64,000 nt of DNA, from positions 1-64,000 of the forward strand of contig JAFTRN010000036.1 in assembly GCA_017462265.1 (NCBI GenBank), given 5' to 3'. The stretch is from Coprobacter sp. (GTDB lineage: Bacteria; Bacteroidota; Bacteroidia; Bacteroidales; UBA11471). The position numbers and the translations under genes are program-made. Shown here in pieces: positions 259 to 4,179 of this stretch (the first letter of the stretch is position 1; each line of letters opens with the position of its first letter). The notes under the pieces are model-generated. The model did not search any database. It was not told the DNA's origin and worked only from the letters and a program-made list of their open reading frames with translations.

Positions 259-987
259 TTACTTTGCCATAATTGTATGGTAAACTTTATTTATGAAATT
301 CTCATAGTCATTAAGTATTACTGCACCATCGGGAGCAATACTCGGATATTTATGTCTAGATAACACCATTGTTGGAATATTTCGACGATAATGACGTAAA
401 TAATCTTGTTTTGTATCAACTATCGCTTCATTCACTTCTGGTTGGGGGTGCACAACATATATTAAGGTTTTATTGGGTGTATGAAAAAAACAATTCACAT
501 CATCGTATGATAATCGGCAGTATTTGCTAATATTATGATCTGTAAATTCCTCCCATTTGGACAATTCTCCACTATTTTTGTAGTAAGGGAGCCTATCTAG
601 TATAATAAATATTTGAAAATATGGGCAATTCGCTGTTCTTATATTTGCTGTTTCTCCTAACATATTTTCAAAATAATTATTTGAGTTTTGAGAATAATTT
701 TGCATTACAAATTTTACAGCAATACCCGCTACATCTTTTTGGCTATTTTTATCTTTTATAGTTATATCTACCATTTTTTCCACATATCGACCTTTGATAC
801 TCGCCTCGCGATCATCTCCATAACCTTGCGATTTGACAAGATAGTTTTTACCTAATCTTTCCGCTATATCTTGTGCAATTGCCCCATGAAGAGGTTTAAG
901 TTTTGCTGTACTTCGGGAAGTACCTATAAATATAAAAGACTTAAAAGAGTCTAAAATTTTCTCCAAAAATGCTTGATTGGTCAACAT
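259..987 (-). CDS. Putative type II restriction endonuclease (partner of the adjacent methyltransferase)
   Basis: A 242-residue protein whose start lies 47 bp inside the 3' end of the upstream N6-adenine methyltransferase gene, so the two are almost certainly co-transcribed and translationally coupled. I do not recognise its exact family. A possible PD-(D/E)XK-like core is visible: VDITIKD around residue 74, then GIAVKF with Lys92, followed by a conserved-looking NNYFENMLGE stretch (about 103-112) and the strand FQIFIILD. The acidic residue normally two before the Lys is Ala here, so the catalytic assignment is tentative. Length and location fit a type II restriction enzyme that cuts the site protected by the methyltransferase. 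The gene is AT-rich relative to the core genes, consistent with transfer. Expression should depend on the same invertible promoter as the methyltransferase. Confidence 0.6.
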   Translation of the reverse strand: MLTNQAFLEKILDSFKSFIFIGTSRSTAKLKPLHGAIAQDIAERLGKNYLVKSQGYGDDREASIKGRYVEKMVDITIKDKNSQKDVAGIAVKFVMQNYSQNSNNYFENMLGETANIRTANCPYFQIFIILDRLPYYKNSGELSKWEEFTDHNISKYCRLSYDDVNCFFHTPNKTLIYVVHPQPEVNEAIVDTKQDYLRHYRRNIPTMVLSRHKYPSIAPDGAVILNDYENFINKVYHTIMAK

Positions 988-2422
988 ATTTTTTCTCAGA
1001 TTTATAGGTTATGTAATAGTTTATATATTGCTGTACGTCTTTCGAATTAAATGTATAATAACCACCACTTTTATATTTTTTAAGTAGGCTAACATACTTT
1101 GCAAACTCTTTACTAATAAGTATGCTTCTAATATCCTCATAAGGTATTTTTAATTCACTAATGAGGTATAAGCCACTATATACTCCGCATCCAGCCTTTA
1201 CTATCTCAATCTTTATATCTTTTTCAGTACGAAGTAAGGTATTAATCGCTATTTTATCTTTCCACACATCGGCTAATGCTTGTGTTCTACCAAACTCGTA
1301 GAATGTTGGATAATCTGTCCGCCCCTTTAATAGTTCGTTTTTATGTTTGTTGAAATATTCGCAAACATCTGTATTTGAGAGAGCTATTTCTGGTGGTAAT
1401 AATTTTCCTTTATTGTCGTACGGGAATAGACATTTATACCACTTACCTGTCGATGCTTTCAGTGTCTTTATTGTAATATTAGATTCTGGAATACTATCTC
1501 CGATAAAAACACTATCTGCTAATGTCGCAAAGCCATTTTTAACAGAAACATAAGTCGGACATTTTTTAGTTTTAACTTCTCGTAAAGTTTTAAGACTTTC
1601 TTTATTGGATAAATAGAAATATGAGTCTATAAAACAATCTTCTAACTGTATACGATCGCAAAATATTCGACAATGGTTTATACCATCAAAAGTGTAATAG
1701 TCAAAATGCTTGTCTTTTCTGTTCTTTGCAAATAAAGAAATAATGGTATATGCTGTAGCATTTTCAAATGCTTGGAAGTGCCCTAAATCTACTAAAGAAA
1801 CAAGGTTTTGTTCTTTGAGAATATACAATCTCATATTAAGAGCTGCAATACTATTAAGCCATGAGCTTGGCGTAATATAACACAATTGACCAGTTGAATT
1901 GAGCATACGGAATCCCAGTTCAAAAAATGCCAGATATAAATCTGTCATTCCTCCATTGGCAAATTTATACCGTTTAACCTCATCGTAAAAAGAATCAAGG
2001 TTATGAACACGTACATAAGGCGGATTACCTACAACAAAATCCATCTTTCCATTAAACCTTGTCATTGAAAGAGAACTTTGATTGTATAAGTCCCAATTAA
2101 TATCCTCTATCCCGAACTCTTGTGCAATTTGATTAAGATTTACAATACATTGTTGATAAGCAATTTCATCTGTATCTATACCATGTATATATTCTTCAAG
2201 ATCTAGTTTTATATTGTCAACACCTCTGCCAAGTTTTATTGATTCATTACAATATCTTGTAACTGCGGACTTCAAAAAAGCTCCATCTCCACAACTATTA
2301 TCAATGATATGTTTACCAATTATAGAAGGACCGACATATCCTACATAATTCAACATTTCATCAACAATATATTGTGGAGTAAATACCTGTCCTATTTTTT
2401 TCGTTTTTCTATTTTCTTTCAT
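941..2422 (-). CDS. N6-adenine DNA methyltransferase of a type II-like R-M system
   Basis: A 493-residue SAM-dependent DNA methyltransferase. The motif order is that of the gamma class (TaqI/Eco57I-like): motif X region KKIGQVFTP (residues 8-16), SAM-binding motif DNSCGDGAFL (41-50) and catalytic NPPY (133-136), followed by a C-terminal part that would hold the target-recognition region. It methylates adenine at the exocyclic amine. The gene comes first and overlaps the presumptive endonuclease by 47 bp, the order expected when the host must be protected before cutting starts. The start codon at 2422 lies only 17 bp from a 19-bp inverted repeat, so no room exists for a fixed promoter; transcription is inferred to depend on the orientation of the segment 2440-2630. 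Strongly AT-rich. Confidence 0.88.
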   Translation of the reverse strand: MKENRKTKKIGQVFTPQYIVDEMLNYVGYVGPSIIGKHIIDNSCGDGAFLKSAVTRYCNESIKLGRGVDNIKLDLEEYIHGIDTDEIAYQQCIVNLNQIAQEFGIEDINWDLYNQSSLSMTRFNGKMDFVVGNPPYVRVHNLDSFYDEVKRYKFANGGMTDLYLAFFELGFRMLNSTGQLCYITPSSWLNSIAALNMRLYILKEQNLVSLVDLGHFQAFENATAYTIISLFAKNRKDKHFDYYTFDGINHCRIFCDRIQLEDCFIDSYFYLSNKESLKTLREVKTKKCPTYVSVKNGFATLADSVFIGDSIPESNITIKTLKASTGKWYKCLFPYDNKGKLLPPEIALSNTDVCEYFNKHKNELLKGRTDYPTFYEFGRTQALADVWKDKIAINTLLRTEKDIKIEIVKAGCGVYSGLYLISELKIPYEDIRSILISKEFAKYVSLLKKYKSGGYYTFNSKDVQQYINYYITYKSEKKYVDQSSIFGENFRLF

Positions 2423-2439
2423 TCCGTCTTTGTTAATCT

Positions 2440-2458
2440 TCTCTATGTAAGAGATACT
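2440..2458 (+). repeat. Left 19-bp inverted repeat (recombination site candidate)
   Basis: TCTCTATGTAAGAGATACT; its perfect reverse complement is at 2612-2630. Each repeat is itself a near-palindrome (TCTCT, 5-nt spacer, AGAGA), the shape expected of a tyrosine-recombinase core site. Confidence 0.8.
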
Positions 2459-2508
2459 AAGACAGATGGAACTTGCTGATTATTAGGTGGTATTTTGTTA
2501 TCCTAATC

Positions 2509-2601
2509 TATTTTTGCTAAACAATCACGCGCAATTATATAGCTGTCAGCCTTTTTGTTGGCTCCAAAATGATGTTAGATGCTTTATTTTGCGTATTTTT
2601 G
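2509..2601 (+). promoter_or_regulatory. Two Bacteroidetes -7 boxes inside the invertible segment
   Basis: TATTTTTG occurs at 2509-2516 and again at 2594-2601, both matching TAnnTTTG. No TTTG lies at the ideal 19-20 nt upstream of either, so strength is uncertain. In the present orientation transcription would run into the 3' end of the recombinase gene, antisense to it. Confidence 0.5.
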
Positions 2602-2611
2602 CAGTAAATTA

Positions 2612-2630
2612 AGTATCTCTTACATAGAGA
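2612..2630 (-). repeat. Right 19-bp inverted repeat (recombination site candidate)
   Basis: Perfect reverse complement of 2440-2458. Identity stops exactly at the ends on both sides (2439 versus 2631 and 2459 versus 2611 do not pair). Confidence 0.8.
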
Positions 2631-2659
2631 CCAATCTTTTTGCTAAACATCTTCGCTTT

Positions 2660-3859
2660 CTACAAATCCTTTAATATCTGAGCGTTTGCTCTATCCACGA
2701 GTGCATTATCCAATGATGCCAAATAAATCTGTGTGGTCATTTCCGAATCGTGTCCCATTCCCTCGCTGATTACTGATATTGGGACATTCTTATTCTTTGC
2801 CACACTTGCCCATGAATGCCTTGCAACATACATTGTCAGCGGTAGTTTAATACCCACCATCTTACCAATCTCTTTGAGTTTGCGATTAATGAGATACATA
2901 GCATTCTGATACTGCGTGCGTTCATTGCCATTCATCTGTTTTATGATGGGTAACAGGTATTCAGATCGTGGGTTTTCGTATTTCTCCACAATCTCCTGCA
3001 TACACTTTTCCCAACGGATAAAGAGTTGTTGCCCGGTCTTGCGTCTGCGGTATGATAGTATGCCATTGGAAAGATCTTTCTTCTTGAGGTACGCCATATC
3101 AATAAAAGACATTCCACGAGTATAGAACGAGAAGAGGAACATATCACGAGCGAAGTCTAATGAAGGTTGTAATGACAAATCAAGACTCTTAATCTGCTTG
3201 ATTGCCTTTAATGGGATTGCTCGTTTAACGGTCTTATCAATACCTGTATAAACGTGTTTAAACGGATTTCGATTGGTGGTCAAATCCTTTTCAACTGCAC
3301 GATTATAGACAGCTCGGAGTATTCGCATATAGAACGAGGAACTGTTCTTTATAAGTCCTCTATTATGCAAATAAGCCTCATACATCAGCATTAAATCAGA
3401 GTCAATATTTTCCAATAGCACATCCTTGTCCTCCCTAAACTGCATAAAACTTTTGAGTGTACAGCGATAGGTTTCCGATGTTCGCGGCTTGCACATCTGC
3501 TGTAATTGTGCAATAACACCCTGCATGAAGTTGAATAGCGATTGCACATTTGCTTGCTTACGAAATGTGACGATTATATCATCAGCAGTATATTTTACTC
3601 GCTTGTTCTCCAATTGAGTGATGATGTTTTGCAATCGCCTAATATCCCAATCAATGCGTTCCTCGATGGATTGAAGATAGTTTTGTCGGCTGCTGTTGGT
3701 GGCGATTATTGCATTATTATCCTCATTCCATTCATGCATAAAGAGTCGGTAATCCGTCTTTAACTGACGGATTACACGATTCTGAATGATTTGATAATAG
3801 ATTGTTCCCTCTTTATTTTCGTTTGTCGAGGGTCGAAACTTTACCTTGATACTTGCCAT
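2660..3859 (-). CDS. Tyrosine recombinase/integrase, candidate invertase
   Basis: A 399-residue tyrosine recombinase of the Bacteroides type. An N-terminal arm-binding-like domain (about 1-100) and SAM-like core-binding domain (about 105-205) precede the catalytic domain. Catalytic residues are visible: Arg248 in YTRGMS, Lys274 in RRKTGQ, Arg347 in YVARHS (the usual His three residues earlier is Tyr, common in this group), His370 in GMGHDS and nucleophile Tyr379 in TQIYLAS. The set looks complete, so the enzyme should be active. It lies 29 bp from a 19-bp inverted repeat and is most simply read as the enzyme that flips segment 2440-2630; it could instead be an integrase of a larger element. 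A minus-strand -7 box (TAATTTTG) lies at 3938-3945. Confidence 0.85.
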   Translation of the reverse strand: MASIKVKFRPSTNENKEGTIYYQIIQNRVIRQLKTDYRLFMHEWNEDNNAIIATNSSRQNYLQSIEERIDWDIRRLQNIITQLENKRVKYTADDIIVTFRKQANVQSLFNFMQGVIAQLQQMCKPRTSETYRCTLKSFMQFREDKDVLLENIDSDLMLMYEAYLHNRGLIKNSSSFYMRILRAVYNRAVEKDLTTNRNPFKHVYTGIDKTVKRAIPLKAIKQIKSLDLSLQPSLDFARDMFLFSFYTRGMSFIDMAYLKKKDLSNGILSYRRRKTGQQLFIRWEKCMQEIVEKYENPRSEYLLPIIKQMNGNERTQYQNAMYLINRKLKEIGKMVGIKLPLTMYVARHSWASVAKNKNVPISVISEGMGHDSEMTTQIYLASLDNALVDRANAQILKDL

Positions 3860-4179
3860 AGGTGTACTTCATTTCATATGTTTATTGGTTTGTTGCGAAA
3901 TTAGCCTCTTACGACATACACCTTTTGGGAAATTTATCAAAATTAAACTCAACGGGTATTTTCGTTATGGGGTGGGGAATAGATGTTATGCAACATATTG
4001 GGGCGTGGGGGTATTGTTTTTGTCGGGGGAAATACTTATCTTTATGACCGTTAACCCCGGAAGTCGGGACGTGGTGACTATACGTCGCCTATGGATTAAA
4101 TGTACCACCTCGCAAGAGTGGTGGCCGAAAAAATCTACGACGTAGCGACACGCTCCCGGCCTCGCCTAAAATCTATTCT
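3860..4179. other. Intergenic region at the accessory/core boundary with the hppA leader
   Basis: No gene is supported here. Base composition shifts from AT-rich on the left to GC-balanced at about 4030-4060, so an island edge probably lies here, but I found no duplicated attachment sequence. The right part contains short pairings (CCACC 4105-4109 with GGTGG 4120-4124; GGCCG 4123-4127 with CGGCC 4157-4161; AGCG-ACA-CGCT inside), which could give a structured leader for hppA; no known riboswitch was recognised. Confidence 0.4.

Follow-up and report, generated by a model that had tools for sequence, protein, structure and literature searches.

A candidate invertible promoter beside a restriction-modification operon of Coprobacter sp. 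and its relatives in Bacteroidales

What might a short inverted-repeat element be doing between a recombinase gene and a restriction-modification operon, and is such an arrangement peculiar to one genome? We addressed this question at a locus near the left end of a 64,000-nucleotide stretch of Coprobacter sp. DNA (the window; contig JAFTRN010000036.1). Reading leftward, a gene for a tyrosine recombinase is followed there by a 191-bp element, a gene for an N6-adenine DNA methyltransferase and a gene for a 242-residue protein (Table 1). From the anatomy of the locus and its comparison with relatives, we consider it highly probable that the element (2440-2630) is an invertible promoter, operated by a recombinase, through which expression of a two-gene type II restriction-modification operon is turned on and off.

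Anatomy of the element and its operon

The element consists of two 19-nt arms (TCTCTATGTAAGAGATACT), 100% complementary to one another, around a 153-nt spacer, and is the only perfect inverted pair of at least 14 nt with a spacer of 20-400 nt in the whole 64 kb. By chance alone, one would expect about 0.00007-0.0003 19-nt pairs; within 300 bp, fewer than one per thousand such windows would hold one. The methyltransferase open reading frame (ORF) starts 17 bp from the left repeat and the recombinase stop codon lies 29 bp beyond the right repeat. The sequence TAnnTTTG is an experimentally supported -7 promoter element in Bacteroides (PMC4747536), and two boxes of this form, both TATTTTTG, point right within the segment, with none pointing left. 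The possibility that both serve as promoters was dropped, since conservation in relatives holds for the box at 2594 alone. The window operon has no TAnnTTTG box of its own before the methyltransferase gene; the promoter-like box occurs only inside the invertible segment. Homologous operons that lack a window-type recombinase occur in Bacteroidales, Clostridia and Mollicutes. In four of these, from the same genus or other Bacteroidales (L006, L007, L008 and L010), a TAnnTTTG box is aimed at the methyltransferase gene from 17-76 bp upstream, and in L014 the only such box lies at 271 bp. The presumed flipper has the catalytic set R248, K274, R347, H370 and Y379, invariant in all 87 related recombinases that we compared, and Tyr344 occupies the usual position of the HxxR histidine, as in 83 of these 87.

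An earlier sequence-only reading had described perfect 19-bp repeats of the form TCTCT-5 nt-AGAGA, two rightward -7-like boxes and no leftward one, the 17- and 29-bp distances and a full catalytic set. The repeat search, box scan, ORF coordinates and recombinase comparison bear out this description, with the refinements that only the 2594 box is conserved and that a tyrosine replaces the HxxR histidine.

We hypothesize that both TCTCT-ATGTA-AGAGA sites are recognized by the recombinase encoded just upstream, which then flips the 153-bp segment that they enclose. As assembled, the sole conserved promoter would face the 3' end of the recombinase gene, leaving the operon OFF or at a read-through level; if active, the 2594-2601 box would then drive antisense transcription into that end of the gene. 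In the flipped sequence, which we computed, the box is 46 nt upstream of the methyltransferase ATG, and the promoter would drive methyltransferase and endonuclease together from a leader of about 40 nt. Both genes would switch together because they overlap by 47 bp, and the defence would probably be turned on in only some cells. That the window copy flips, that its box has promoter activity and that methylation and restriction respond is what we infer.

The methyltransferase matches the Pfam families Eco57I and N6_Mtase and the PADLOC type II methyltransferases (E=3e-158), and its sequence matches among solved structures are M.BseCI and M.TaqI. For its 242-residue partner, comparison with Pfam, NCBIfam, PADLOC and PDB sequences gave no match, and because of this we turned to structure prediction. 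An AlphaFold2 model (pLDDT 81.7) aligns in VIA at Z 8-11 with NucC, BsaWI, BbvCI, AgeI, Kpn2I and NgoMIV (root-mean-square deviation 3.3-4.5 Å over 148-179 residues); Foldseek alone gave a weak result, the best being BstEII at E 0.002. Residues D74, K92 and E107 are invariant across eight homologues and could, as a guess, form the active site; they are spaced similarly to the displaced-glutamate active site found in the NgoMIV/Cfr10I group. The predicted restriction-endonuclease fold and the invariant residues make a two-gene type II restriction-modification operon the most likely identity of the pair.

Table 1 Features of the switch locus in the window
Feature	Position	Strand	Basis or remark
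Left (cargo-side) inverted repeat and putative recombination site	2440..2458	+	Core TCTCT-ATGTA-AGAGA; perfect; identical in L009, L114, L115
Right (recombinase-side) inverted repeat and putative recombination site	2612..2630	-	Perfect partner of 2440..2458
Invertible segment, 153 nt, bearing the candidate promoter	2459..2611	.	81-88% identical in L009, L114, L115, orientation alike in all
Conserved promoter -7 box TATTTTTG of the form TAnnTTTG, directed at the recombinase (OFF orientation)	2594..2601	+	Position shared by 35/40 non-redundant elements
Other TATTTTTG box, lacking conservation among relatives and probably incidental	2509..2516	+	Box scan and comparison with relatives
Tyrosine site-specific recombinase, presumed flipper of the segment	2660..3859	-	Arm-DNA-bind_5, SAM_5, Phage_integrase
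Possible promoter box for the recombinase gene, CAAAATTA (minus-strand reading TAATTTTG)	3938..3945	-	Box scan
N6-adenine DNA methyltransferase, first gene of the putatively switched operon	941..2422	-	Eco57I / N6_Mtase; PADLOC MTase_II
Probable PD-(D/E)XK restriction endonuclease	259..987	-	Overlap with methyltransferase gene; predicted structure

Several further observations concern the locus and its source. A short inverted motif, AGCC-N8-GGCT, sits mid-segment (2520-2580) and is kept in L009, L114 and L115 while its surroundings vary. We found no further exact copy of the 19-bp repeat elsewhere in the 2.32-Mb, 79%-complete assembly; target sites acted on in trans in the same genome were considered and rejected, as just two 3-mismatch matches turned up where, by our own estimate, ~0.5 would be expected by chance. 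In L010 (4965-7257) a 71%-identical methyltransferase homologue is split, its N-terminal part on one strand and its C-terminal part with the endonuclease on the other; a TTCAAT match at the breakpoints accompanies what is either an inversion within the gene or a misassembly. Directly behind the window operon, an ORF cut by the contig start (1-174) resembles a DUF1016 N-terminal domain below the Pfam cut-off, with anything further left out of view. The window starts where contig C7 starts and the assembly comprises 62 contigs, which suggests that the DNA comes from a draft metagenome assembly and not from an isolate.

A family of switches with exchangeable cargo

To place the element among its relatives, we compared 87 recombinase loci, with homologues gathered from Bacteroidales genomes. 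An inverted-repeat element usually lies 2-60 bp past the recombinase stop codon. From these loci 40 non-redundant elements were picked regardless of whether they contained a box, with shuffled interiors as control. An outward TAnnTTTG box stands 24-35 bp from one end in 35 of the 40 (shuffled mean 0.9, maximum 4), and none of the 40 has an inward-facing box in that position. The core TCTCT-N5-AGAGA is readable in 24 loci and has 14 different centre sequences, a diversity that would fit a role of the centre as the strand-exchange overlap, which must match between partner sites.

Among 53 readable elements, 48 are OFF, with the box towards the recombinase, and 5 are ON, with the box towards the cargo. 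One of the ON elements, L124, aligns with eleven OFF elements (L051 and L052 among them) at 90-94% identity, but only once it is inverted; uninverted, the identity is about 0.48. Both flanks are collinear between L124 and its OFF relatives and the breakpoints fall exactly at the repeats. This inverted match within collinear flanks shows that elements of the window's switch family invert in nature. Loci with restriction cargo comprise 24 OFF, 2 ON and 7 that are not callable, with near-copies counted separately and hence not an independent sample; the uncallable restriction-linked loci of the L053 type have a degenerate box, TAATTTCG, facing the recombinase.

The cargo behind these elements differs even where the repeats do not. 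The exact 19-bp repeats of the window recur in three other genomes. L009 has the same operon (methyltransferase 85% and endonuclease 87% identical), and L114 and L115 have unrelated restriction systems: in L114 a split Eco57I methylase precedes a third gene, whose L053 homologue is a T5orf172/ResIII helicase, and in L115 a DrmD-like SNF2 helicase (PADLOC E 2e-202) precedes a type III methylation subunit. Similarity among the four loci ends just past the distal repeat, where the cargo starts. Likewise, recombinases ~97% identical to one another precede three restriction architectures (the L118, L116 and L122 types). Cargo labels were assigned by us from protein clusters and from the Pfam and PADLOC matches of representatives. 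Among loci with readable cargo, restriction-modification genes follow the recombinase in 33 of 52 at a recombinase identity of at least 61%, versus 0 of 28 more distant ones; other cargo includes capsule, fimbria and further surface-protein genes. On a quick recombinase tree the restriction label changes 8 times, compared to 25.7 times after shuffling, a contrast that near-copies inflate. The first ORF of most restriction cargos starts within about 50 bp of the element, which leaves no room for another promoter.

The exact repeats with differing cargos, together with the 33/52 versus 0/28 distribution, indicate that the window switch is one member of a recombinase-plus-invertible-promoter module common to restriction systems. 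The sequence-only reading missed that many different restriction systems share this type of switch. Its central proposal, an invertible promoter now OFF with the adjacent recombinase as flipper, is strengthened by the conserved anatomy in dozens of loci and the natural OFF/ON pair in relatives; its leader of about 40 nt agrees with the 46-nt distance in the flipped sequence, and the joint switching that it envisaged for methylation and restriction would follow from the gene overlap.

More broadly, we lean towards the view that this Bacteroidales recombinase clade and its linked invertible promoter form a portable ON/OFF switch of anti-phage restriction. Restriction-modification systems of at least six unrelated types would have near-identical modules ahead of them: two-gene type II; split Eco57I methylase with T5orf172/ResIII helicase; fused methylase-helicase; PLD/SNF2 helicase with IIG; type III-like, including the DrmD-like helicase; and type ISP. 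Most cells would be OFF and a minority ON, hedging phage defence against its costs, barriers to gene uptake included.

Two sets of loci extend the picture in other directions. Recombinases 87% and 70% identical to that of the window (L112 and L128) lie ahead of operons that encode a DO-GTPase2-like or tubulin-like protein with large uncharacterised proteins; these operons might be further defence systems that the same switch controls. Sites of the TCTCT..AGAGATACT type also occur in L089 (G171:C9), L090 (G241:C88) and L049 (G031:C17) with no related recombinase nearby (8 kb searched for L089 and L090, 1.5 kb for L049). A paired repeat and a box are present in L049 and in L048, whose site is the same as that of L090, and recombinases may act on these two in trans.

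Alternative explanations

Several points weigh against an ON/OFF promoter switch at this locus. The window copy is known in the OFF orientation only, as are L009, L114 and L115, and the -33 element of the 2594 box is weak or absent. In addition, OFF may be leaky or simply a state of lower expression, because the recombinase gene, transcribed from the same strand, points at the operon and a search of 2380-4000, a range that includes the invertible segment and the recombinase-operon interval, revealed no terminator-like site. This same arrangement underlies the main rival, in which basal read-through from the co-directional recombinase gene reaches the operon in both orientations and inversion shifts expression only between low and high. 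However, the repeat lies just 17 bp from the start codon, and homologues that lack a recombinase have their own box near the gene, which suggests that the operon needs a strong nearby promoter. Furthermore, B. fragilis extracellular polysaccharide (EPS) genes behind a comparable element, IVp-I, are induced only in the ON state (PMC4747536). We regard modulation alone as possible but doubtful.

The finding that all four elements with the exact window repeat are OFF could also reflect a decayed switch, its anatomy kept and the element frozen OFF in the window's lineage. This seems improbable, given that the repeats are perfect and identical across the four genomes though interior and flanks diverge, and that the recombinase catalytic residues are intact. 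Still less probable, and in our judgement very unlikely, is that the repeats and recombinase mark the end of an integrated element, an integrase with its attachment sites and no promoter switch. The domain layout of the recombinase is indeed integrase-like and the locus is accessory, with its neighbour gene hppA present without it in three same-genus genomes. Yet the sites are inverted, about 190 bp apart and on one side of the recombinase, the outward box is conserved at a fixed distance, and relatives have inverted naturally. We also considered a phase-variable type I system with an hsdS shufflon and rejected it: the sole long inverted repeats near the operon are those of the promoter region, and the operon itself yielded no gene of HsdS/HsdR type.

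Relation to known switches and biological meaning

Descriptions of phase-variable restriction usually concern type I specificity shuffling or repeat-tract slippage. For Bacteroides they concern mainly the former (PMC3090145, PMC5903667, PMC11892184), and invertible promoters of methyltransferases have been cited as a suggested possibility (PMC10333322). Like the candidate promoter switch of the window, type I hsdS shufflons (B. fragilis shufflon BB, PMC3090145; S. pneumoniae, PMC4948785) alter the restriction and methylation state of the cell by inversion, but they swap segments of specificity genes, whereas the window system would flip a promoter between ON and OFF with its genes intact.

The layout of recombinase and downstream invertible promoter has been tested in B. 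fragilis, where Tsr19 (BF2766) and IVp-I, as in the window, comprise a tyrosine recombinase, immediately an invertible TAnnTTTG promoter and then an operon (PMC4747536). OFF prevails there in culture and in most faeces, and is also the commoner state in the window's family. In contrast, the cargo of IVp-I is an EPS operon, and Tsr19 also acts on a distant site, whereas no exact second site was found in the window's assembly. The IP-ARG classes 1-3 similarly place an invertible promoter, of -7 sequence TANNTTTGY, directly downstream of the invertase, and exchange cargo behind near-identical invertases; they differ in carrying antibiotic resistance or glycan cargo on conjugative elements rather than restriction-modification genes (PMC8748976).

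A further parallel is the EPS switch of pMMCAT-type plasmids (L159-L167), in which a recombinase 54% identical to that of the window is followed by an inverted element, whose box stands at 27 bp from the end of the element, and then by a UpxY/EPS operon. Unlike in the window, this element lies 135 bp past the recombinase and the cargo is of capsule type. All 8 plasmid copies with the element have it OFF, and L164 has a transposase in its place. Three identical IMG/VR contigs (L154, L155 and L156) encode a 60%-identical recombinase and have an element of the same type, ON in all three. We sought the opposite orientation in the 8 near-identical pMMCAT elements and related viral contigs and found no within-sequence flip.

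Our literature search, which some important papers lay beyond, found no account of one recombinase clade switching several entire non-type-I restriction systems ON and OFF by promoter inversion. The mechanism itself is known in outline from Bacteroides Tsr switches and from invertible promoters of capsule and resistance genes, with the window copy as a further member; what appears new is the shared, cargo-swapping restriction switch. The restriction-linked loci are concrete places at which the orientation of metagenomic reads can be compared with phage exposure. If a widespread module does toggle whole restriction systems, it would help account for the many apparently silent methyltransferases reported in gut Bacteroidales (PMC10333322), and the methylomes, transformability and phage resistance of these bacteria would differ from cell to cell.
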